64,000 nt of DNA. It comes from an uncultured Verrucomicrobiota bacterium. Lineage in GTDB: Bacteria > Verrucomicrobiota > Verrucomicrobiia > Opitutales > Seribacteraceae. A program made the position numbers and the translations under genes. A model generated the notes under the pieces. That model searched no databases. It was not told the DNA's origin and saw nothing but the letters and a program-made list of their open reading frames with translations. The stretch covers positions 1-64,000 of the forward strand of contig CACHJU010000009.1 in the NCBI GenBank assembly GCA_902580225.1, given 5' to 3'. Shown here piece after piece: positions 2,978-61,587 of this stretch (the stretch's first letter is position 1; the number at the start of each line of letters is the position of its first letter).

Positions 2978-5122
2978 TTACCTCAAATAAAGTAATGCTT
3001 TACGCCAAGAAAGTTGGATTCTTCTGTCAAATAAAGTCAATATTTCGTTACCATGCCCACCAATAGAAACATCTAAAATATAACTTGAAGGTGCATCTTT
3101 AGGAGATTCAATGATTTTATGAATGCGAAAACTTTCCATAATATTAAACATAACATATTTACTTTCTGTAACGATACCTCTTTGTTCGAAAACAAATTTT
3201 GTACCAACTAATTTTTTTGCAGAAACAAAACCAGATCTAGGTATGTTCACTTCTCCTTCTCCGCCAGTAACTCGCCACGATCTGTATAGAAAATCTATAA
3301 TTCTACCAAATTCTTCAACTGTTTCAACTCCTAAGGTTTCTACAGATTTATTGTTCCATGTATAACTGGATTTTTCAACTGGACTTTCGTTTTGAGATTT
3401 TTCATGCGGTTTTTCTTTTTTGGGATAAACAAGCTCATCTTTAGTGTAATCATATTTTCTTTCAATACTTCCATCGTCATTCCAGAAAGTCCAAGTTCCC
3501 ACTCTTGAGCCTTCAACATATTCACCCTCATCCAATTTTTGACCGTTAAAATGCCAGTAAGTCCATGATCCCTCTCTTAAGCCTTTAACATATTTACCCT
3601 CATTACTTTTTTGACCATCGTCATTCCAGACAGTCCAAGTTCCCTCTTCTAAGCCTTCATCCCATTCACCCTTATATTTTTTTTGACCGTTATCATGCCA
3701 ACCTTGCCAATATCCATCTTTTAAGCCTTTAACATATTCACCCTCCTCATATTTTCGACCTTTTCTATCCCAGTACGTCCAAGATCCCTCTTCTAAGCCT
3801 TCATCCCATTCACCTTTATATTTTTTTTGACCGTTATCATGCCAACCTTGCCAATATCCATCTTTCACTGATTTTGGGTTCATTCTATAATCCAAATCCC
3901 AAGAGAAAATATTCGGGTTTCCTATATTTTCTTCACCAAAAGTATAGAATGCAACTTTATCTTGGATATTATTAACATCCCTCCCATCATTACCTATGAC
4001 GAATTCAACATCATCATCATGAGGTAAGGGTATCGTATGCCAAAAACGATCACCCAATGTAATTTCCCCATCCAAATCTTGATCAACTAACACATGTATA
4101 TTACTTCCCCCCCAAGCATCTTTTAAGAAGCCTTCGTCTCCAAAATTATCTTCAGTGAATGAGTAGAATTTAATTTTTTTTCTATTTTGCATTGTTAATA
4201 GATCATCGAGCTCCTCCCAAGATTTTGAACGGCGATTCCATTTCATACCGTGAAGAGCAGCAATAAAGAAGTTAAGTGAATTATCTTCATTTAGTAGTGT
4301 AGGTACTCCTTCATCGTTTTCTAGTAAAAAGGGAGGATAATATTTATAATGTTCTTTGTATGCATTAATCGCATCAATTAAATCAAGAAACATCTTTTTT
4401 GTTTTGGAAATATTTTTTAAAGAAATTTCATCTTGCTCGATAAATTTTCCTTGGGATCGTATTTCTCCGTTCTCATAAAAACTTATTGCATAGCCATTTC
4501 GAATGCCATTTTCGAATTGCACTATACATTTTACACTTGCCTTGCCCCATATGTTTTCTTTTATCCACCCGTTAAAAGGTTCTCCTCCTAATAATTTAGT
4601 TCCATTAATCTGATGCCAAGTAGTGGAATTTTCTTCTACAGCTTCAGCAATTAACTTATCTATAGTTTCCTTTTTTAAATCGAAGTCATCTGAAGATGGC
4701 ATTAGTAACAGTGCAATCAATCCAACTCCTAAACTTATCCCCGATACACTCATTAAAAACATTTTATCTCCTTTATCTTTTTCTCGAATCGCTGAATAAC
4801 CACAAAAGCTCGCAACTAATACGCAAGGAATTATTATAAACCAAAGTATTATGCTGACTATTAATTTCCACCAATAAATAAGAAAGCCCAAAGCAAGAAG
4901 AGCTATAGAATATGGTATGATCTGCCTTTTAAGTTTTTGTTTTTTCTTAAAAAAGGAAATGAAATCCAATTTTGCGTTAACTTCACTTTCAGAAGATTCA
5001 GTGGTAGATGATTGTTTATCTTCTGATTTTTCTTGTGCTAACTTTTTTTTCTCAGATTCCGCACTATCAACAGACTTTTTAACATTATCATCTTTTTCTT
5101 TATCTTTATCATCAGTTGGCAT
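2978..5122 (-). CDS. membrane protein with pseudopilin-like region and MORN_2 repeats
   Basis: A 714-residue protein. The first 50 residues are highly charged and low in complexity (Asp/Lys/Ser). Two or three hydrophobic segments follow at about 68-150 (IPYSIALLALGFLIYWWKLI, IIPCVLVASFCGYSAI, GISLGVGLIALLLM). Residues about 235-380 recall the C-terminal part of type II secretion pseudopilins (LIDAINAYKEHYKYYPP, then DAWG and DQDLDGEITLGD). Residues about 415-560 carry 24-residue MORN/YwqK-like repeats (GYWQGWHDNGQKKYKGEWDE, GSWTYWDRKGRKYEEGEY, GTWTVWNDDGQKSNEGKY). An unassigned C-terminal domain of about 130 residues follows. The repeats probably bind protein or membrane at the periphery. Function is unknown. 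The gene is AT-rich and stands alone before the thermonuclease gene. Confidence 0.7.
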   Translation of the reverse strand: MPTDDKDKEKDDNVKKSVDSAESEKKKLAQEKSEDKQSSTTESSESEVNAKLDFISFFKKKQKLKRQIIPYSIALLALGFLIYWWKLIVSIILWFIIIPCVLVASFCGYSAIREKDKGDKMFLMSVSGISLGVGLIALLLMPSSDDFDLKKETIDKLIAEAVEENSTTWHQINGTKLLGGEPFNGWIKENIWGKASVKCIVQFENGIRNGYAISFYENGEIRSQGKFIEQDEISLKNISKTKKMFLDLIDAINAYKEHYKYYPPFLLENDEGVPTLLNEDNSLNFFIAALHGMKWNRRSKSWEELDDLLTMQNRKKIKFYSFTEDNFGDEGFLKDAWGGSNIHVLVDQDLDGEITLGDRFWHTIPLPHDDDVEFVIGNDGRDVNNIQDKVAFYTFGEENIGNPNIFSWDLDYRMNPKSVKDGYWQGWHDNGQKKYKGEWDEGLEEGSWTYWDRKGRKYEEGEYVKGLKDGYWQGWHDNGQKKYKGEWDEGLEEGTWTVWNDDGQKSNEGKYVKGLREGSWTYWHFNGQKLDEGEYVEGSRVGTWTFWNDDGSIERKYDYTKDELVYPKKEKPHEKSQNESPVEKSSYTWNNKSVETLGVETVEEFGRIIDFLYRSWRVTGGEGEVNIPRSGFVSAKKLVGTKFVFEQRGIVTESKYVMFNIMESFRIHKIIESPKDAPSSYILDVSIGGHGNEILTLFDRRIQLSWRKALLYLR
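3660..3880 (-). repeat. 144-bp internal duplication in the MORN gene
   Basis: The stretch around 3660-3717 recurs nearly unchanged about 144 bases further on (around 3804-3861); for example gccaaccttgccaatatcc occurs at 3697 and 3841. 144 bp equals two 24-codon MORN units, so the block arose by in-frame duplication of a unit pair. DNA-level identity is well above what protein conservation needs, implying a recent event. Confidence 0.8.
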
Positions 5123-5205: not shown

Positions 5206-5916
5206 TCACCACTCTGGCCTCGCACCCTCACCATCATAGTCCTTCGCCAAGCCCTTTGCCTTAAGCTTCTCTGCAAGCGATTCTCCATCGATCCACACCT
5301 CGCTTATGATACGAAAATACTTCCCTCGCTGAGGATTCTTTAGTTCGATCTTACTTGCTCCTTTGAGAGCCTTTTCGGTCACTTGCTGGGCTTGCATGGC
5401 TAATGCTTTAACCTCATCTGAAGTACCCTTCATCTCAGGTGTATCCACTCCGAATAAGCGAATGGAAAGATCATCACCAAACAATGGATGCACGCTTGGT
5501 AAATCAATCTTGAAGGTGTCTCCATCGTACACATCAACGACTTGGTCAGGTGACAGAATAAATAGGTTCTCGTTACTCGTAACAGATGCAGTTGCTTCTC
5601 CTTCATCACCCGGCATCAAATTTATCAAGCCAAAGATTGAGAGTCCAATAAGCAAGAGAAACAGGAACACACAGATGGTTACAACTGCCAGCCTACCTTT
5701 GCGTATCTTTTTCTTTGGCTTTGCCTGAGTGACTGGTTTGGTTGTAGTTACAGGTTTGGTAGCAATGCCAGGTACTTGCGATAACTTGATCCAATTTGCA
5801 CCATCATGGCATGCATAATCATTGCCTGTAAAGTTACCCGCCTTCAGGTATTGGCGTACTTGCTCAAGAGTAAATGCCCCATAGGTCTTGCCGTCTTTGT
5901 GGATGTGGATCTGCAT
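5206..5916 (-). CDS. GYF_2-TM-thermonuclease (SNase-like) protein
   Basis: A 236-residue membrane-anchored nuclease-like protein. Residues 1-50 match the GYF_2 domain (MQIHIHKDGKTYGAFTLEQV, ANWIKLSQVPGI). A Lys/Arg stretch and one transmembrane helix (about 75-100) follow. Residues about 120-236 form a staphylococcal-nuclease fold. The catalytic signature appears intact: DGDT, then R-L-F-G-V-D-T-P-E (metal ligand Asp and general-base Glu), and the Arg in GKYFRIISEVWIDG aligned with Arg87 of SNase. The family hydrolyses DNA and RNA with calcium. Here the nuclease would sit outside the membrane, tethered by a cytoplasmic GYF domain. It is separate from the MORN gene by 83 bases and may be in the same transcript. 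Confidence 0.82.
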   Translation of the reverse strand: MQIHIHKDGKTYGAFTLEQVRQYLKAGNFTGNDYACHDGANWIKLSQVPGIATKPVTTTKPVTQAKPKKKIRKGRLAVVTICVFLFLLLIGLSIFGLINLMPGDEGEATASVTSNENLFILSPDQVVDVYDGDTFKIDLPSVHPLFGDDLSIRLFGVDTPEMKGTSDEVKALAMQAQQVTEKALKGASKIELKNPQRGKYFRIISEVWIDGESLAEKLKAKGLAKDYDGEGARPEW

Positions 5917-6250
5917 GCAAAATTAATGCTACAGGAGACTTTAGTTACCAGTCAATGCAATGGATTGTGCACGAATTACAAAAAAAAGATATTTTTTATA
6001 AAAAGCATTTAAACCTACATAAATAATTGATTAATAGAAGGATATGTTATTTTGCAAGGTGTCACTTATAGAATTATAAAATGCTACACCTTTAAGTTGT
6101 TGAATATCATATCTATATGAATTTATTGCTATTTTAATGCTGTATGTTAATGAATTTTAAAGTTTTTATTTTATCTCACAAAATATTCTTGTTCAGCTAC
6201 TTAAGTTTTATCTATTTGCTGATTATTTCGCAACATGGTATATTAATATC
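5917..6250. other. AT-rich gap, no gene seen
   Basis: Very AT-rich sequence between the thermonuclease start and the 40-bp repeat array. I find no convincing ORF, RNA gene or terminator. It may contain the left boundary of the mobile element, but no short direct repeat marking a junction was found. Confidence 0.5.
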
Positions 6251-6490
6251 ATAGTCAGGTTCTGAAGGTAGACTATAAATGCCTTCTGCAATAGTCAGGT
6301 TCTGAAGGTAGACTATAAATGACTTCTGCAATAGTCAGGTTCTGAAGGTAGACTATAAATGCCTTCTGCAATAGTCAGGTTCTGAAGGTAGACTATAAAT
6401 GCCTTCTGCAATAGTCAGGTTCTGAAGGTAGACTATAAATGCCTTCTGCAATAGTCAGGTTCTGAAGATAGACTATAAAAGTCTTCTGGT
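6251..6490. repeat. six tandem 40-bp structured repeats
   Basis: Six contiguous 40-bp units start at 6251, 6291, 6331, 6371, 6411 and 6451. Units 1, 3, 4 and 5 are identical, unit 2 has one change and unit 6 is diverged at its end. Each unit contains a perfect 6-bp dyad, ATAGTC (1-6) with GACTAT (21-26), and a second 5-bp dyad, GAAGG (14-18) with CCTTC (32-36), interlocked with the first. In unit 6 the second dyad is GAAGA with TCTTC, a compensatory change. Because 40 is not a multiple of three the array is non-coding. There are no spacers, so it is not CRISPR. It resembles an iteron, partition or excisionase-binding array upstream of the mobile-element genes. Confidence 0.9.
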
Positions 6491-6649
6491 GGCTCTTATT
6501 CAGGATGAGCAGATTAAACTAAATTCCTGTGAATTAACAAACGGTGCCTAGAAATCTCTTGGTTAATTGTTTTAGGTTTCGTTTTATTTTTAACGATCAA
6601 GTCACCGGGGATTGGCATGATTTATATAAAAAGGAAGGTCTAAATAGAC

Positions 6650-6847
6650 ATGAATAATAATATTAATACAGCAGGATATCACGACGATGATTTCCTTACA
6701 CAACAGCAGCTCGCAGGGCGCTTGAACAAGAGTGTCCGCACTCTACAAAACTGGAGGAATCAAGGATTACTACCTTACAAAAGAATGGGTAATTCGGTTC
6801 TTTTTCACTGGGGTTCATGCAAGAAAGCAATGGGGGTGCAGTCATGA
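6650..6847 (+). CDS. excisionase/MerR-type HTH protein
   Basis: A 65-residue DNA-binding protein. Residues about 14-60 form a winged helix-turn-helix of the HTH_17 excisionase class: FLTQQQLAGRLNKSVRTLQNW followed by the wing KRMGNSVLFHW. In mobile elements this class acts as recombination directionality factor or small repressor. AAGGAAGG lies about 9-16 bases before the ATG. Its stop overlaps the next start by four bases (ATGA), indicating translational coupling. The tandem 40-bp array lies 160 bases upstream and is a natural candidate binding site; that link is inference. Confidence 0.75.
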   Translation: MNNNINTAGYHDDDFLTQQQLAGRLNKSVRTLQNWRNQGLLPYKRMGNSVLFHWGSCKKAMGVQS

Positions 6848-7272
6848 GTAAATATAAATGTGCAATATCGTTAACCGGAAAAACATGGGCAGTTGATTTC
6901 ATTAGATCAAATATGAGTGAAATCATAAACGAAAAGTTTGATGCCTGTGGTAATCATGAAATTATTAATCAAAAAAAAGTACACGAGGCTTCTAATTGTG
7001 ATGATTCAGAAATATCCATTACTTTTACTTTTTACTACAAATCTTGTGCTCCATACGAAGAGTTCCCAGAGGATGCAATGAGTGACCTAGAAAGTATTCC
7101 TGGAGTAATGGAACTATTAGCTATTTCAAATCATTGGGATGGTTATTATATATGGTCTAGGGGAAGTTTATTTCAAACTGAATTCTACGGTTCAGGTATT
7201 CTCGAAAATATTCGTTCAGATATCCACGATGATATATTTGGAGTAAAAAAAAGTGAAAACAATCCGTATTAA
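6844..7272 (+). CDS. unknown element-borne protein
   Basis: A 142-residue acidic protein without signal or membrane segment. I do not recognise the family. The ATG inside the ATGA overlap is chosen because GGGGGT precedes it. An in-frame ATG 27 bases upstream is unlikely to be used. The sequence is rich in aromatic residues near its C terminus (NHWDGYYIWSRGSLFQTEFY). It is sandwiched between the HTH gene and the replication-like gene, with overlaps at both ends, so it belongs to the element operon. Possible roles are replication accessory or anti-defence; nothing in the sequence decides this. Confidence 0.6.
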   Translation: MSKYKCAISLTGKTWAVDFIRSNMSEIINEKFDACGNHEIINQKKVHEASNCDDSEISITFTFYYKSCAPYEEFPEDAMSDLESIPGVMELLAISNHWDGYYIWSRGSLFQTEFYGSGILENIRSDIHDDIFGVKKSENNPY

Positions 7273-7729
7273 ACTCTCTGATCAATCAGAAGAAGTTCTG
7301 GAGGAGATCCGTCTGCATCTTAACTGTAATTGGCAGACAGCGGCAAATATTGCCATTCTCAACGGCAGAAATGCCGTTGGGAGTGGCATTTCTGCCCCTA
7401 GGAGTGGCAAAAGTGGCACAGGGAATGCCAAAAGTGGTTCTGAAATGCCTTTAGCAGAGGCAAATCCCCTATATATATATAGTTATAATAATAATAATAG
7501 TAGTTCCTCTAAAGGAAAATTAATACCAAGTGATTTTGATCCACCTATTAGCATTACAGATGAAGCTGGTTTAGATAGGGATGGTGCTATTTTTCAGTTT
7601 AGGAAATGGGCTGATGCTAAAAAAAAGAAATTTCCCTGCTGGGATGAAGCGTTTCGGTATGCTTGTAATAATTGGTTAAAGGATGCAAATAAACATTTAA
7701 TCCTGAAAAATGCTGGTTTAAGGTTTTAA
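7253..7729 (+). CDS. small replication-initiator-like protein
   Basis: A 158-residue protein, GTG start, overlapping the previous gene by 20 bases. Residues 1-40 look like a small ribbon-helix-helix or helical DNA-binding module (MKTIRIKLSDQSEEVLEEI). Residues about 42-90 are a Gly/Ser/Asn-rich linker whose DNA is a cluster of palindromes and an A+T run. Residues about 100-158 resemble the C-terminal segment of phage replication organisers and DnaT-like proteins (FRKWADAKKKKFPCWDEAFR, then NNWLKD). The architecture of DNA-binding head, origin-encoding linker and partner-binding tail recalls lambda O. The family assignment is inference. A one-base slip near 7727 would extend the product by 19 acidic residues. 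Confidence 0.55.
   Translation: MKTIRIKLSDQSEEVLEEIRLHLNCNWQTAANIAILNGRNAVGSGISAPRSGKSGTGNAKSGSEMPLAEANPLYIYSYNNNNSSSSKGKLIPSDFDPPISITDEAGLDRDGAIFQFRKWADAKKKKFPCWDEAFRYACNNWLKDANKHLILKNAGLRF
7332..7510. promoter_or_regulatory. candidate replication origin inside the initiator gene
   Basis: Between 7332 and 7462 the tetramer GGCA or its complement TGCC occurs about a dozen times. Palindromes include GGCAA-ATA-TTGCC at 7342-7354 and a perfect 12-bp inverted repeat, GGCAGAAATGCC (7364-7375) with GGCATTTCTGCC (7385-7396), loop 9. A pure A+T stretch (TATATATATAGTTATAATAA) follows at about 7471-7498. Iterons followed by an A+T unwinding element within an initiator gene is the layout of the lambda origin in gene O. 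This is a structural analogy, not proof of function. Confidence 0.45.
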
Positions 7730-7779: not shown

Positions 7780-9069
7780 CTAGCTAGTCTTGGGATCCGG
7801 AAATCCGGATCCCGTGCCTTGCGATATTGGTGGCGTAAAATTCCAAAATTCTTCTGCTTGGTCTACTAGATATTTTTCTTCTGCGACATAGTAGTCTAGT
7901 TCACTGTTATCAATGTGCCCCATTTGCTTTATTAATTCTCTTTCATCTTGATGCATTGCCCAATGCATCGATGCAAAGGTGTGGCGCATTATATCATTCA
8001 CCCAAATTGGACGGCCTACACCTGCCCTTTCTTTTAAAGAAAGTACTCTTTTATGATAATTCTTTTGTTTTACAACTAAGCCTTTTTTTTTGGCTACTTT
8101 TTTTAGAATTTTAACTGCACAATTTGGAATATCTACATGTCTACGTTTCCGAGTTTTCGATGAATATACCCAGACTCTGTTCTTGTAATCTAAATCAACA
8201 TCTTTCCAATCTAAAAGCCTCAATTCGGCATCAGGGCGTAGACCGCACCACAACCCAAGAGTTGCCCATGCAGTGAGCTCGTAAGCGTTTCCTTTTCTAT
8301 ATTCTTTATTCTCCGTAGTAATTGCAGTTAAAATAAGTTTTTGCCACTGATCTTGCTTTAAATACGCAGGATCTTTATCAGCAATTTCTTCTTTCTCTTG
8401 CGTAATCGGATTCTGCCCTTTCTTGATTACTTTTCCACCATGCTCTTTTATACATAGGTTAAAAATAGCATGGCAAACTTTTCGAAAATTTTCTCTATGT
8501 CCAAGTTGTTTGTAGATGGGAAAAAAATGCTCTTTATTTTTAAAGTCCACTGCTCGCATAGAACCGTGTTCTTTTTTTAATATTTTACCATAATACTCAT
8601 ATTCTATTAATGTTTTACTAGATCCACCCTTAACATTTTTTCCTTTGGCTCGCATCTCCACTCTCTCTTTTACTTTCTGGATTTTTTCATCCACGATTTG
8701 AGAAACTGTTATATCTGATTTTGCATCTTCTTTTGCTTTAAGATCCCGAAGATGCAAGATTGCTGAGTAAAGTTCATTAAAATCGGTTGCAGGTAATATT
8801 TTAAAAGCTCTGGCAGCATCCGCTCTTTGATTCGGGGTTAATTGTTTAAGTGAACTTGCACCATATTCACCTAATTCATCTGTGAGTGCATTAACATAAT
8901 CCTTGGCTATTGTTTGTGTTGCTTTGTAAAGCCTTTGCGGTTTGCCGGTGGGTGAATACTTTTTGCGTATGTATATCTCAAATTTGTTTTTGCCTTCCTT
9001 GTAAGGAACATGTGTAATGGTAGCTATGTTATCATGTGGATGTTTAATAGTTTTACGCTTTGCCTTCAT
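7780..9069 (-). CDS. tyrosine recombinase / integrase
   Basis: Site-specific integrase of 429 residues from the preferred ATG (MKAKRKTIKHPHDN); an upstream ATG would add 11 residues. It has an N-terminal arm-binding region, a core-binding SAM-like domain (about 95-210) and a catalytic domain (about 230-420). Catalytic positions visible are Arg in CGLRPDAEL, Lys in SSKTRKRR, Arg-His in IMRHTFAS, His in QMGHIDNS and the Tyr nucleophile in LDYYVAEEKY. The first His of the usual HxxR box is replaced (DIMR). The gene reads away from tRNA-Arg, whose 5' end is 119 bases from its start. It is convergent with the replication-like gene. It presumably recombines at the tRNA-Arg sequence. Confidence 0.9.
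   Translation of the reverse strand: MKAKRKTIKHPHDNIATITHVPYKEGKNKFEIYIRKKYSPTGKPQRLYKATQTIAKDYVNALTDELGEYGASSLKQLTPNQRADAARAFKILPATDFNELYSAILHLRDLKAKEDAKSDITVSQIVDEKIQKVKERVEMRAKGKNVKGGSSKTLIEYEYYGKILKKEHGSMRAVDFKNKEHFFPIYKQLGHRENFRKVCHAIFNLCIKEHGGKVIKKGQNPITQEKEEIADKDPAYLKQDQWQKLILTAITTENKEYRKGNAYELTAWATLGLWCGLRPDAELRLLDWKDVDLDYKNRVWVYSSKTRKRRHVDIPNCAVKILKKVAKKKGLVVKQKNYHKRVLSLKERAGVGRPIWVNDIMRHTFASMHWAMHQDERELIKQMGHIDNSELDYYVAEEKYLVDQAEEFWNFTPPISQGTGSGFPDPKTS
7792..7813. repeat. perfect 10-bp palindrome at the integrase 3' end
   Basis: GGGATCCGGA at 7792-7801 and TCCGGATCCC at 7804-7813 are exact reverse complements separated by AA. The hairpin lies over the last codons of the integrase gene, between two convergent genes. 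No T-run follows on either strand, so a standard intrinsic terminator is unlikely. It may still halt transcription or serve as a protein-binding dyad. Confidence 0.6.
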
Positions 9070-9187: not shown

Positions 9188-9262
9188 GCTCCCGTAGTTC
9201 AATGGATAGAATATTGGTCTCCGGAACCGAAGATCTGGGTTCGACTCCCAGCGGGAGTGCCA
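9188..9262 (+). tRNA. tRNA-Arg (anticodon CCG)
   Basis: A 75-nt cloverleaf with encoded CCA. Acceptor GCTCCCG pairs with CGGGAGT (one G-T wobble). The anticodon stem TTGGT/ACCGA has loop CTCCGGA, giving anticodon CCG for codon CGG. The T arm is CTGGG-TTCGACT-CCCAG. The discriminator is G. The 3' 44 bases are duplicated at 12340-12383, marking this as an integration target. The wobble in the acceptor suggests its 3' part may have been supplied by an element. Confidence 0.93.
9219..9262 (+). mobile_element. attachment-site copy within tRNA-Arg
   Basis: Forty-four bases from the anticodon loop to CCA match 12340-12383 with two mismatches. Reconstruction of the tRNA 3' part is the standard outcome of tyrosine-integrase insertion. 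The bounded 3.1-kb island lies to the right, while the integrase lies to the left, so the history is probably more than one event. Confidence 0.8.
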
Positions 9263-9806
9263 GTTTCAATAGTGGTAGCAATGTTTTAATTTAATCGTAC
9301 CAAGAAATTTTTACGGTAATTGCCGAAAATCTGCGAAAAATGTTGGAACATCTTACAAAAAAGCTGAAATTAACTGTATACGAAACTAAATTCTAAAATT
9401 CTCGATATCCAAATCTTTGAATTTAGGCCGAGTACGAATGACCTACTTTTTTTTCGATAAATGTAAATGTACCAGTGAGGAGGTTTACCTTCTAAGTCTG
9501 ATACAAGGTTTTGTGAAAAAGTTTATTTTGCATGGAGAAATGGCTGGGTTATTCTGTAAAGAAACAGGACCGAAGGGTTTGGGCGGCTAAAGTTCGTCCC
9601 ACTGCTCAACCGCGGTTCATCATGTTATTATTTTCTTAAGCGAGGACATGAGAATCTCCGCCACTGCAGACTTGTTAGATGAATGTGTCGAATCCGGAAG
9701 AGAATTTGTTTCGAAAGTATACAATAATTCTCCGACTAAAACCGATAATATTGATTTGGACGAAAGTAAGAGGATTTATACCATCCCGTTCGGGCAAAGA
9801 TATTGG
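9263..9806. other. island left end, mostly non-coding
   Basis: Downstream of tRNA-Arg the DNA is AT-rich. It contains the second 14-bp repeat (9360-9373) with extra similarity to the integrase upstream region. A 35-codon ORF at 9532-9639 (begins MEKWLGYSVKKQDRRVW) has no recognised relatives. An open frame beginning at 9648 runs into the trpB relic, but its first 50 residues are not recognisable. Confidence 0.5.
9360..9373. repeat. 14-bp direct repeat, right copy
   Basis: Exact second copy of the sequence at 9070-9083. It lies 98 bases beyond the tRNA 3' end, while the left copy ends 104 bases before the tRNA 5' end, so the two lie almost symmetrically around the tRNA gene. Confidence 0.5.
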
Positions 9807-10007
9807 ACTTGCGGGTCAGTATGGATTGCAACTGCTTCAGTTTGTGTTCGTTTTGGAATGGAATGTGTAATTCATATGGGAGCGAAAGATATGTGCAGGC
9901 AAGCTTTTAATGTTTTTAAAATGAAATTAAGCAGTGTGTAAGTAAGGGGCGTGGAAGCGGATAGTAAAACCCTGAAGGAAGCCATTAATGAAGCATTGAG
10001 GGACTGA
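9807..10007 (+). pseudogene. trpB: relic of tryptophan synthase beta chain (trpB)
   Basis: The translated sequence matches the middle of Trp[20 protein letters not shown], then [15 protein letters not shown], then after an in-frame TAA (9939-9941) the segment SKTLKEAINEALRD, and a TGA (10005-10007) where the family has Trp. Upstream, the conserved TGAGQHG block is visible only by changing frame (AGQYG), implying small deletions near 9809 and 9825. Both ends of the roughly 400-residue enzyme are missing. The relic cannot encode activity. It lies within the island bounded by the tRNA-Arg repeats. Confidence 0.82.
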
Positions 10008-10085
10008 GTAAAAATTTACGTAAAATTTTAATCTTCAGATAGAAAAGTTTTTTGTTGATTGAGTAAGTCTTTATGTCGGATTAAA

Positions 10086-10949
10086 TCATTTTACTAAAGC
10101 AACATCTTTCTTTACTAAGGACTCAATAACAGTGGTTTTTATTGCATGTCCTTGATCATTTAACAGCCTAAAACCCATTTTTCTATATCGCTCGATTTGC
10201 TCAACTAACTTTTCAAGATGTTTGTGGTTCACTTCGAAAAATATGAATTTCACGAATTGACTAATGGTTTCATCTGTAAGATCAGATAAAACTCCTGCTT
10301 CAAAGCCTTGTATATCCATTTTGATACATGCCTTTTGGCCTAAGCCAAGTTCTGACTTGATTATGTCATTAGCTGATATGTTCTCGACTTCAAATGTTCT
10401 TGTAAAGTGTTCAGGCAATTCATCATTTCCCCAATCACCGACAGCTGTTCCACTACCAGAATTAAAAACTCTTTCCGTTAAAATTCCACTTCCTACTACA
10501 TTAGATAGTAAGTTTCCGTAAATTTTTACATGATTTACATCAAAATCTAAAAAAGTCTTTTGCAGAAGACCAATACATAGGGGATTGGGCTCGACGCAAA
10601 CAACTTTGCCTATATTAAATTTTTTTAAACAATACAAAGAGTATAATCCAATGTTGGCTCCAAAATCAAAAAAAACAGATTCTTTTGTATCCTTTTCTAT
10701 GTTTTGATCAAAAAATTTGAATGCAGAAAGTCCATACTGTAAGCCCATGGTTTGGGCAACATGAGAATAATCAAATATATTTATATATAAGGTACCCTGA
10801 ACACCATTACGTCTAATCGTCACTTTTTGGTATGGTTGATGTCTATCTGCAAATAAAAAATTTATAAAAAAATTACATATTCTTATACCTACTACAGGTA
10901 ATTTAGATAAAGTATTTATTTTATCTATAAAATTTGCATTAAATTTCAT
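10086..10949 (-). CDS. FkbM-family SAM methyltransferase
   Basis: A 287-residue methyltransferase. The start at 10949 (MKFNANFIDK) is chosen because GAGGAAATTTA lies just before it; a 16-codon extension upstream lacks such a site. The Rossmann SAM-binding core shows VFFDFGANIGLYSLY, VVCVEPNPLC and the acidic KMDIQGFEAGV motif typical of FkbM enzymes, which methylate sugar hydroxyls in polysaccharides or natural products. The AT-rich gene stands alone in the island. It could decorate surface glycan, for instance altering phage receptors; the substrate is not shown by the sequence. Confidence 0.85.
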   Translation of the reverse strand: MKFNANFIDKINTLSKLPVVGIRICNFFINFLFADRHQPYQKVTIRRNGVQGTLYINIFDYSHVAQTMGLQYGLSAFKFFDQNIEKDTKESVFFDFGANIGLYSLYCLKKFNIGKVVCVEPNPLCIGLLQKTFLDFDVNHVKIYGNLLSNVVGSGILTERVFNSGSGTAVGDWGNDELPEHFTRTFEVENISANDIIKSELGLGQKACIKMDIQGFEAGVLSDLTDETISQFVKFIFFEVNHKHLEKLVEQIERYRKMGFRLLNDQGHAIKTTVIESLVKKDVALVK

Positions 10950-11075
10950 TAAATTTCCTCGATAGTAAATGTAATTTAAGAAAATATTAAAATGCAAATG
11001 TCTCTACAGCAACTTTAAAAAAGGCAGAAGTGTGACTGTGTTTTGTAACCCCAAGAAGCCATAAGGAAAGCCCGA

Positions 11076-11369
11076 TTAGACACACTTGTCCCTTTTCCTA
11101 AGACCGAAGTTTTTATAGAACTGAAGTTCAATATAACTGAGTAACCTAACAGGGCGTTTCCAATCATCACAAAGCTCACATGATGGACTGAGTTTTATGG
11201 AATTGATGAGATATCGAGCTTCTTTTTTCCAAGTAGCTTTATTAATTCCTTCAGCAAGGAATATTTTGCTTACCTCTTCTTTTGTCATTCCAGACTTTAT
11301 CCCTCGCCACTCGAATGCGTTGGCAACGCTCGTTAAAAACAATGCTATCAGCAAAATTAAACTTTTCAC
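11076..11369 (-). CDS. small secreted protein of unknown function
   Basis: A 97-residue protein with a clear signal peptide when read from the GTG at 11367-11369: VKSLILLIALFLTSVANA, cleavage after ANA. An upstream TTG would spoil the signal shape. The mature part begins FEWRGIKSGMTKEEVSKIF, reminiscent of the BamE/SmpA-type GMTKEEV motif, and has a Cys pair (CELCDDW). The basic end RKRDKCV is abrupt and may be truncated. Function unknown. Confidence 0.55.
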   Translation of the reverse strand: MKSLILLIALFLTSVANAFEWRGIKSGMTKEEVSKIFLAEGINKATWKKEARYLINSIKLSPSCELCDDWKRPVRLLSYIELQFYKNFGLRKRDKCV

Positions 11370-11484
11370 TTTGAAATAAACAATCAATCAAAAACTTGAG
11401 TCAATCGAAATGAGCATTCCGCTGTTCGATAAATTATTAATTGAGGCGGAAAGTATAACAAGATACTAAGCAACCAATCCTTCT

Positions 11485-11598
11485 TTAAATGTTCCAATTA
11501 GGTCTGTGTTTTTGTTTGAACTTCCAATATTCCAAAAACCTTTTTGCATCGTTAAGATTTACATGGTTTTTGTAATGTCGTTCACGAACGATTACCAA
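11485..11598 (-). CDS. possible 37-residue ORF
   Basis: A short minus-strand frame from TTG at 11596-11598 to TAA, with a plausible helical, basic composition (NLNDAKRFLEYWKFKQKHRP). It lies just downstream of the 88-residue gene and may be an orphan gene or the end of a decayed one. No ribosome-binding site is evident. The remaining sequence of 11370-11622 shows nothing else. Confidence 0.22.
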   Translation of the reverse strand: MVIVRERHYKNHVNLNDAKRFLEYWKFKQKHRPNWNI

Positions 11599-11622
11599 AT
11601 TGTTTATCTATAATTGATTCAT

Positions 11623-11889
11623 TTATCGGTTCTTTATTTGTAAAAAGGTTGGAAATTCGTCTGGATTAAATGGTGGGAATAATATTGTTAAACCATTATC
11701 AAGAGATATCGTAACTTGTATTCCATGTAATTCATCTTCGGTCATATCCATGAAGTCTTTATTCATCTCATCTATTCCGTTATATGTATAGACAATGTCG
11801 CAAACCTTATTGCTAAAAAAGTGGTTAAATGCATCGCTTAGCATCCAATGTTCGAAGTAACTATCTAGTCGTTCTATAATTTGATTCAT
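11623..11889 (-). CDS. small hypothetical protein
   Basis: An acidic 88-residue cytoplasmic protein, no signal or membrane segment (opens MNQIIERLDSYFEHWML, ends FPPFNPDEFPTFLQIKNR). The family is not recognised. Its ATG overlaps by four bases the stop of a 48-residue ORF upstream, suggesting coupled translation. Such acidic small pairs in islands can be immunity or toxin-antitoxin components, but nothing here proves that. Confidence 0.45.
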   Translation of the reverse strand: MNQIIERLDSYFEHWMLSDAFNHFFSNKVCDIVYTYNGIDEMNKDFMDMTEDELHGIQVTISLDNGLTILFPPFNPDEFPTFLQIKNR

Positions 11890-12032
11890 ATAACCATTAT
11901 GCCCAATAACCTGCTACTTGAGGGATCATAAATAACCTTATGTGTGAGTGTCTGAACCGATTGAAGGCGTTGGGACACAGGAAAGCCTAGATGAACACCT
12001 ATCCAATGCACTCTGCCCAACTCATTATCCAT
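11886..12032 (-). CDS. 48-residue ORF coupled to the next gene
   Basis: Starts at ATG 12030-12032 with AAGAG directly before it and ends in TGA that overlaps the next ATG (ATGA). The product begins MDNELGRVHWIGVHLG and ends RLLGIMVI. No family is recognised. The overlap and ribosome-binding-like sequence are the only support. Confidence 0.33.
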   Translation of the reverse strand: MDNELGRVHWIGVHLGFPVSQRLQSVQTLTHKVIYDPSSSRLLGIMVI

Positions 12033-12339
12033 CTCTTTTTTCTATTCTTCATTTTGTCTTAATTGTATAATGTATAGTATGCCAAAAAACACAGACAAAG
12101 TCAAGCAAAAAATGTGAATAAATTGTATCATAAAACCTTTATTAACAATTATTTACAAAATAATTATAGAAAAACATATAAACCTATAAAATTGTACAAA
12201 GATACTAACACAAAAGGAGTTGTATTTGTTTTTATTTGTGGAAAAATTGTGGAAAAATTTCCGTCGATTTAGGCTTATCTTTTCGCATTTCACTTGATCT
12301 TAATAGTTTATGACTTTTATTTTATAAAGTGTCATCAAA
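12033..12339. other. AT-rich gap at the island right end
   Basis: No gene seen. The tract is strongly AT-rich with short repeated words (TTGTGGAAAAATTGTGGAAA around 12235-12260) and runs directly into the partial tRNA-Arg copy. It may hold promoter or integrase-binding sequence. Confidence 0.5.
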
Positions 12340-12383
12340 CTCCGGAACCGAAGATCTGGGTTCGACTCCAAGCGGGAGCGCCA
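12340..12383 (+). mobile_element. partial tRNA-Arg copy (second attachment site)
   Basis: The 3' 44 bases of tRNA-Arg without any 5' half. Its acceptor strand CGGGAGC would pair perfectly with the GCTCCCG of the complete gene, while its T arm has a mismatch (CCAAG). It is therefore likely the original chromosomal 3' end displaced by insertion and now free to drift. The terminal CCA shares its A with the ATG of the next gene. Confidence 0.82.
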
Positions 12384-59748: not shown

Positions 59749-61587
59749 ATGAATTCCCCCAAAGATAAAGTTAAAGAAAGTACAGATTCAGAAATAGGTT
59801 TAGTTTCTCCCCGCATCTTTGAATATAAAAAAAGATTCGTCATGACTCATGGGGAGTTACCAAGCTTCTGTATAAAGTATGAAACCTATGGAAAATTAAA
59901 CAAAGAGGGTACCAATGCAATTTTAGTCTGTCATGCCCTCACTGGAGATCATCATGTGGCAGGAATTGATAAAGAGAATAAAAGAAAGGGGTGGTGGGAC
60001 CATGCTGTTGGTCCCGGAAAGGCTATTGATACGGATAAATATTTTGTAATTTGTTCAAATTGTCTTGGGGCTTGCCAAGGATCGACCGGACCAACATCAA
60101 TTAATCCATTGACTGGCGAACCATATGGCATGTCCTTTCCTGATCTTTCGATTAAAGACATGGTTTGTGCCCAGAAACATTTATTAGATCATTTGAAAAT
60201 TAATTCACTTTATTCGGTTGTTGGCGGCAGTATGGGTGGCATGCAGGCTTTGCAATGGGTTGTTGAATTTCCTACTTTTGTTGAAAGTGCCATAATTATT
60301 GCAGCGACACCCCAACATAGTGCCCAAACAATTGCATTTAATGAAGTTGGGCGAACTTCAATTAAGCGTGACCTTCATTGGAATAACGGAGACTATGATA
60401 ATAACAGCCGTCCTGAGGCGGGGTTAGCGGTAGCAAGAATGATGGCTCATATAACATATCTTTCTGATAAAGTAATGTCTGAAAAGTTTGGGCGAGAGCA
60501 AATGATTGCGAATGATGAACAAGATGAAGATTTAGATAAAAATCAGTTTAAAGTCGAAAGCTATTTACACTACCAAGGGCTCAAGTTTGTGGATCGTTTT
60601 GATGCTAATACATACTTAAAGCTTACCAAGGCATTGGATCGTTTCGATCTGGTTGGGGATCTTGGCTTGGATCATAATCTAATCAATGTGAGTGCAAAAA
60701 TAATGGTTGTAGGCTTTACCTCGGATTGGCTTTACACTCCTGCTCAAAATAGAAGAATTGCTGAATCCTTACAAAGATTAAGTAAAAACGCATCTTATTT
60801 GGAAATAGATCATGATTATGGACATGATTCTTTTTTGCTTAAATCCTATGATTTTTTACGATTAATAAATTTATTTTTGGGGGGAGAAAATCAGGATGAA
60901 ATTACTCGTTTAGATGAAAAAAAATCTACTCGAGTTAATAATAGGTCTGAAGTAAATCGAGTTAATAATAGGTCTGAAGTAAAAAAAGAAGCGGACCTTA
61001 AAGTAATAAGTGATTGGGTAAAAAAAGGAGAAAAAGTACTAGATTTAGGTTGTGGAAGAGGTATTCTGCTCGAGCATCTTCGTGAGACTAAAAATGTTAA
61101 TGGCCTAGGCGTTGACTACGATTCCAATAAGGCAGCCGCTTGTATTTCAAGAGGTGTAGATGTTTACCAAGGCGATATCCGCAATGCCTTGTCAATGCTC
61201 GAAGATAATTCATTTGATTGGGTTGTCTTTTCAAGAATGGTGGAAGAATTACCTGAACCTGGTCAAATAATCCTGGACGCATTAAGAGTTGGAAAGCGAG
61301 TCGCAGTTAGTTTTGTAAATCATGGCTATTGGAGGAATCGCTTACATTTTTCAAAATATGGCTCTCGAATAACCAATGATGTTTATCGTCAAAATTGGCA
61401 GAAAAGCTACCCGCGCAACCATCTTTCAGTCAAAGAGTTTGAATCCTTTTGTGTTTCTTTGAAAGTTCAGGAAAAATCCTTCCGAGTCGGAAGAAAAGTA
61501 TTTCATCGTGGAAATTGGCGAACTGAATGTAGTTTGCTTCCCAATTTGAGAGCAGGTTTAGCTATTTATGAATTAGTTGGAGATTAA
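59749..61587 (+). CDS. MetX-MetW fusion: homoserine O-acetyltransferase with MetW domain
   Basis: A 612-residue fusion. Residues about 20-385 are MetX, an alpha/beta hydrolase: LVCHALTGDHHVAG, CLGACQGSTGPTSINP, VVGGSMGGMQALQW with the nucleophile Ser (about 160), and late Asp and His in the family order (FTSDWLYTP; YGHDSFLL). Residues about 420-612 are MetW, a methyltransferase-like fold: KVLDLGCGRGILLEHL, FDWVVFSRMVEELPEPG and YPRNHLSVKEFESFC. A tandem 27-bp repeat lies in the linker. It makes O-acetyl- (or O-succinyl-) homoserine for methionine. ATG at 59749 is chosen; GTG at 59719 is possible. Confidence 0.93.
   Translation: MNSPKDKVKESTDSEIGLVSPRIFEYKKRFVMTHGELPSFCIKYETYGKLNKEGTNAILVCHALTGDHHVAGIDKENKRKGWWDHAVGPGKAIDTDKYFVICSNCLGACQGSTGPTSINPLTGEPYGMSFPDLSIKDMVCAQKHLLDHLKINSLYSVVGGSMGGMQALQWVVEFPTFVESAIIIAATPQHSAQTIAFNEVGRTSIKRDLHWNNGDYDNNSRPEAGLAVARMMAHITYLSDKVMSEKFGREQMIANDEQDEDLDKNQFKVESYLHYQGLKFVDRFDANTYLKLTKALDRFDLVGDLGLDHNLINVSAKIMVVGFTSDWLYTPAQNRRIAESLQRLSKNASYLEIDHDYGHDSFLLKSYDFLRLINLFLGGENQDEITRLDEKKSTRVNNRSEVNRVNNRSEVKKEADLKVISDWVKKGEKVLDLGCGRGILLEHLRETKNVNGLGVDYDSNKAAACISRGVDVYQGDIRNALSMLEDNSFDWVVFSRMVEELPEPGQIILDALRVGKRVAVSFVNHGYWRNRLHFSKYGSRITNDVYRQNWQKSYPRNHLSVKEFESFCVSLKVQEKSFRVGRKVFHRGNWRTECSLLPNLRAGLAIYELVGD
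60931..60984 (+). repeat. two tandem 27-bp units in the MetX-MetW linker
   Basis: The 27-bp unit CGAGTTAATAATAGGTCTGA plus seven more bases occurs twice in a row (60931-60957 and 60958-60984, last bases slightly different). It encodes a duplicated nine-residue segment (RVNNRSEVN) between the two enzyme domains, a likely variable-length linker that does not shift frame. Confidence 0.88.

Follow-up and report, generated by a model that had tools for sequence, protein, structure and literature searches.

What is the array of six 40-bp tandem units that occupies positions 6251-6490, on the forward strand, of a 64,000-nucleotide stretch of DNA (the window) from an uncultured Verrucomicrobiota bacterium? 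The array was delimited by TRF and by direct reading and was then examined with a pseudoknot scan and pair counts. TRF returned a period of 40, 5.9 copies, and 97% matches, and the six units at 6251-6490 that an earlier note on this DNA had described were confirmed. ATAGTC (unit positions 1-6) and GACTAT (21-26) are present in 6/6 units, as had been claimed, and this first dyad is invariant. Variation among the units is confined to positions 18, 30, and 32 and to the two final bases of the copy at the end. The units are near-identical by descent, and the dyads common to them are therefore not independent evidence.

The array is single-copy in its own genome and was missing from 91 of the 91 related genomes searched. 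Rfam covariance models gave no match to it, and blastn against phages and plasmids returned a 21-base match and nothing else. No viral contig scanned contained the unit patterns of this array or of a second array described below. Unit 17-mers also matched 16 genomes and a single viral contig; each was a lone match, the total was about the chance count for 257 Gb, and these were rejected as further occurrences.

Three genes with overlapping ends lie downstream, on the same strand as the array. The first (6650-6847) encodes a 65-aa HTH_17 protein that is excisionase/AlpA-like (Pfam HTH_17, 29.7 bits, above cut-off; PHROG excisionase families), with TIGR01764 excise scoring below its cut-off. The second (6844-7272), whose start overlaps the HTH stop, encodes a 142-aa orphan, for which no relatives were found among phages, viral contigs, and 353 genomes. 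Its AF2 model is of low confidence (pLDDT 58), and Foldseek pointed to a ferredoxin-like fold, not to a Kid/ToxN fold. The third gene (7253-7729) was taken from the list of open reading frames and encodes a 158-aa orphan without a family match, the structure model of which was uninformative (pLDDT 33). From its position, which matches that of the replication protein in related elements, we infer a role in replication. The gene itself contains GTGGCA/TGCCAC motifs and then an AT-rich run at 7343-7500 (TATATATATAGTTATAATAATAATAATAG), which resembles an in-gene origin as in lambda O. Short repeats are also found inside the replication genes of two related elements, in genomes G020 and G038. Convergent to this operon is a tyrosine integrase gene (7780-9069, reverse strand; Pfam PF00589, 39.2 bits; PHROG integrase).

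The integrase start faces the 5' end of an intact tRNA-Arg(CCG) gene at 9188-9262 (forward strand; ARAGORN, Rfam), which marks the integrase end of the element. A displaced 3' half of the same tRNA gene was located at 12340-12383 (forward strand), and the 5' half is on contig C17 (G000:C17:36946-36985). Relatives have the order TonB receptor - tRNA-Arg - DUF3050-like gene (the latter named by eye), which is ancestral. On C17 the 5' half has the TonB gene next to it, and in the window the 3' half has the DUF3050-like gene next to it. Set against the order in relatives, these split flanks show that the foreign DNA between the halves was inserted at tRNA-Arg. C17 and C9 may be neighbors, since C17 ends and C9 begins within what is apparently one LamG-type gene family. 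As in tRNA-targeting integrative elements, the integrase lies beside a tRNA and tRNA halves lie at the borders; on these sequence grounds, the array belongs to an integrative element or island at tRNA-Arg. Known elements of this kind carry a tyrosine integrase, an HTH_17 excisionase, and a replication module. The integrase-tRNA arrangement and the HTH gene are the same here, and a replication protein is present in relatives. Unlike most such elements examined, this one has an array upstream of its HTH gene, a feature seen in only two. The array was also considered as an arm-type or att region and rejected as such: att is at the tRNA, 2.7 kb off, and the window contig has no tRNA half to the left of the array.

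The earlier note had proposed a second dyad, at unit positions 14-18 with 32-36, and had argued for it from a compensatory change. The dyad is intact as GAAGG/CCTTC in units 1, 3, 4, and 5, and in unit 6 it is GAAGA/TCTTC, a compensated change from G-C to A-T at 18/32. Unit 2 was overlooked; it reads GAAGG/ACTTC, and its pair 18-32 is broken (G/A). On the RNA strand, the second stem lengthens to GAAGGUA/UGCCUUC, which is 7 bp including one G-U, and the outermost added pair, 20-30, is broken in unit 6. Among the distinct units, one pair has changed in both partners, and pairing is lost in two cells. Covariation within the array is at chance, being equalled in 164 of 500 shuffles, and so the compensatory change alone proves nothing. 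With the pair broken in unit 2 as well, that argument is unsupported.

To look for interlocking stems, we used our own simple energy model of two crossing stems, in which stacking values followed the Turner set and G-U stacks were approximated. In each unit, the scan predicted a first stem (S1) of 1-6 with 21-26 and a second stem (S2) of 14-20 with 30-36. The predicted loops measure 7 and 3 nt and the linker 4 nt. There is no gap between the 5' strand of S2 and the 3' strand of S1 (junction 0), and the layout is AUAGUC - 7 nt - GAAGGUA - 0 - GACUAU - 3 nt - UGCCUUC - 4-nt linker. At a scan energy of -21, the two stems beat chance with p ~0.006 against dinucleotide shuffles and, by column permutation over all six units, with p 0.002, although the window p value is biased because the unit was picked for its dyads. 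L3 is tight, with 3 nt spanning a 6-bp stem. When folded as nested RNA structures, neither the array nor single units did better than shuffles.

A promoter-like site, found in the sequence and scored, lies at 6216-6244 on the forward strand. It consists of TTGCTG, 17 nt, and TATATT, with a TG one base before the second hexamer (an extended -10), and its predicted start is 6251. TATATT follows TGG, and its end is 6 nt upstream of unit 1; a -10 with TG at that spot occurred in ~1.2% of shuffles (chance ~0.012). The site is missing from the list of the consensus tool because its -35 is weak, with only 3/6 matches in the first hexamer. In the E. coli toxI control, the -10 is at nearly the same distance from the array. 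A Rho-independent terminator was looked for in 5900-6700, and none was found after the array or elsewhere in this interval.

An integrase search across the phylum yielded ~40 loci, ~21 of them with an HTH gene. A tRNA adjoins the integrase start in many of the related loci, and in several relatives the HTH gene is followed by replication genes (BT4734-like domains; DnaB- or initiator-like proteins, by eye). Pairs of 11-bp direct repeats (TTTGTAGCCAC, TGCTGTCATTT) were seen just upstream of related integrases (L010, L012, L033) and are possible arm-type sites. When the 900 bp upstream of 22 HTH genes (21 loci) were scanned, arrays were present only in the window and in G038 (G038:C109), which comes from the same host family and shares ~34% integrase identity with the window element. 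A third close element, in G020, had no array, and a family-wide integrase search gave no further close element.

The G038 array was located by position and not by dyads. It has four 36-bp units (L031:4582-4726), preceded by a 10-of-12 promoter; two HTH_17 genes and a gene for a BT4734-type replication protein lie downstream. Its sequence has no similarity to that of the window array. The predicted layout is nevertheless the same: GCAGU - 6 - UCGGG - 0 - GCUGU - 6 - CCCGA - 4, with the unit starting at S1 as in the window. S1, L1, S2, junction, L3, and linker measure 5, 6, 5, 0, 6, and 4 in G038 and 6, 7, 7, 0, 3, and 4 in the window. The scan energy was -18. Column permutation gave p 0.0007, and dinucleotide shuffles gave p 0.003 to 0.035 for the units and 0.035 for the consensus. 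The G038 value is scoring-dependent, as an earlier, cruder count of paired bases had given 0.33 for G038 and p 0.0075 for the window. All 40 of its 40 pair cells form, and one pair varies among A-U, G-U, and G-C. G-U pairs fit RNA and not DNA dyads. In both arrays the predicted pseudoknot is on the same strand as the HTH operon, and the reverse strands gave p = 1 and 0.05.

The array could be a neutral minisatellite, in which a 40-bp intergenic stretch was expanded by slippage and the chance dyads of the founding unit were copied six times. Such an origin would suit the near-identical units with their few variable positions, the chance level of covariation within the array, and the absence of the array from all the relatives' genomes searched. 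We regard it as unlikely given the pseudoknot propensity (p 0.002-0.006), the promoter placed at unit 1, and the recurrence of layout and location in an array that was found independently (p 0.0007).

Alternatively, function could reside in the DNA. The units would then be operators or iterons to which either the HTH_17 protein or the replication protein of the element binds. They would regulate the HTH-replication operon or else belong to an origin next to the AT-rich stretch at 6000-6199 (22.5% G+C in the composition profile), which is directly upstream of the array. The setting recalls the iteron and operator arrays of plasmids and integrative elements, where tandem repeats likewise stand upstream of a regulator-replication operon with an AT-rich neighbor. 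In both elements the array directly precedes the HTH gene, replication modules follow that gene in relatives, and ATAGTC-N14-GACTAT is a plausible dimer site in every unit. Compared with typical iterons, however, the units are longer, off helical phase, and strand-asymmetric in their pairing. The claim that the repeats lie on nearly the same face of the helix is weak: 40/10.5 is 3.81 turns, so that each unit drifts by ~70 degrees. The 36-bp repeat of G038 makes 3.43 turns, and neither unit is a whole number of turns. As DNA, the dyads of G038 are imperfect (G-T), but as RNA they pair fully. Furthermore, 20 of the 22 HTH genes had no array in the 900-bp scan, and another iteron-like, AT-rich candidate origin exists in the 158-aa gene (7343-7500). 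A DNA site array is possible but, in our judgment, not the probable answer.

Repeats of this size are known from type III toxin-antitoxin systems. The antitoxin RNAs of these systems consist of tandem units of 34-45 nt, and Pectobacterium ToxI has 5.5 units of 36 nt (PMC5086642, PMC4627078). At 40 nt x 5.9, the window array falls within the type III limits of ~34-45 nt and ~2-6 copies (PMC5086642, PMC4627078). A promoter followed by tandem 34-45-nt pseudoknot repeats is the type III antitoxin design (PMC5086642, PMC4627078), and the opinion that the array matched no named repeat family was thus mistaken, although toxin and terminator are missing from this locus.

As positive controls, we used toxI arrays beside annotated toxN on four plasmids, which were reached via the pseudo-ToxI of phage phiTE. 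The scan recovered the control pseudoknots with the same topology (AGGUG - 1/2 - 4/5 - 0 - UACCU - 5/6 - 4/5). The controls had p values of 0.025 to 0.14 and energies of -15 to -18, and the window and G038 arrays score at least as well. The suggestion of an H-type pseudoknot in the earlier note thus gains from these controls and from a second array of unrelated sequence but the same layout, while its original argument from compensatory change is not supported.

Like ToxI, AntiQ, and CptI (ToxIN/AbiQ/CptIN/TenpIN), the window array has tandem units of 34-45 nt, a promoter of its own (here predicted), and the potential for an H-type pseudoknot with adjoining stems. Unlike ToxI, it has no ToxN-family toxin and no Rho-independent terminator, and an HTH_17/replication operon lies downstream instead. 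L1 is 6-7 nt in the window and G038 arrays compared with 1-2 nt in ToxI, the linker is 4 nt compared with 10, and there is no sequence similarity. A terminator was seen by eye in both of the printed toxI controls. The toxN profile, which found the control, had no match in the window, the examined part of C17, or the G038 and G020 regions. PF13958 matched 0 of 92 genomes, in a weak search that also returned 0 for the control genomes. Since neither a ToxN-type toxin nor a terminator was found, the locus is not a type III toxin-antitoxin as defined. In function, the array may nevertheless resemble the RNA component of such a locus.

One could suppose a true type III system with a toxin too divergent to recognize, such as the 142-aa protein. 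This orphan is downstream, and the array and promoter geometry is like that of the toxI controls. However, the HTH gene intervenes between the array and the 142-aa gene, no counterpart of this protein was seen in G038, the low-confidence model of the protein is ferredoxin-like and not Kid/ToxN, and no terminator was found. We consider a divergent toxin highly improbable. Phage phiTE provides a precedent for toxin-less ToxI-like repeats on a mobile genome in its pseudo-ToxI (PMC3475682). The window array is similar in that it consists of repeats without a toxin on mobile DNA. It differs in that the phiTE repeats closely resemble ToxI, whereas the window array is unlike any known antitoxin and the relatives yielded no ToxN (in the weak PF13958 search).

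Taken together, our tentative preference, held at a little under an even chance, is that the array is transcribed into ToxI-like pseudoknot repeats whose partner is not a recognizable ToxN. The sample consists of two arrays. The array would be a short transcription unit, with the promoter starting the RNA at unit 1. This RNA would contain six tandem repeats in a ToxI-type architecture, in which each repeat could fold compactly as an H-type pseudoknot (S1a-L1-S2a-S1b-L3-S2b) and linkers of 4 nt would connect the repeats. The array heads the excision/replication operon of the tRNA-Arg integrative element. The pseudoknots would most likely bind protein, acting as inhibitor or decoy against a protein that binds or cuts RNA and is not a recognizable ToxN.

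To our knowledge, tandem pseudoknot repeat RNAs of such a build are known only as type III toxin partners or phage mimics. A broader and decidedly doubtful idea is that a family of toxin-less ToxI-like pseudoknot arrays serves integrative elements, binding a protein of the element or host and controlling excision or replication rather than neutralizing ToxN. If this were true, toxin-less arrays on the excision/replication operon of mobile elements would represent a new class of RNA inhibitor, or decoys against host or rival nucleases. Two arrays and their layout make this idea directly testable.

Several other features were observed in the course of this work. tRNA-Arg(CCG) is an insertion hotspot in the genus (9188-12383; L086, L085): G021 has a second 5' half ~2.1 kb upstream of the intact tRNA, and G001 has a second 3' half ~1.3 kb downstream. 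A Cas9-type CRISPR locus (G000:C17; L058:7275-12351) encodes a Cas9 of 1042 aa (cas_Csn1, 205.6 bits) and has apparent Cas1 and Cas2 frames. Its 11 repeats of ~36 bp are separated by spacers of ~30 bp, which had no match in the DNA examined here. The locus adjoins the displaced 5' half of tRNA-Arg and appears to be inside the same tRNA island. Elsewhere in the window, 72/144-bp tandem repeats at 3471-3865, MORN-like by eye, fall within a 714-aa frame (2978-5122, reverse strand), and 60930-60983 is an exact 27-bp tandem duplication.
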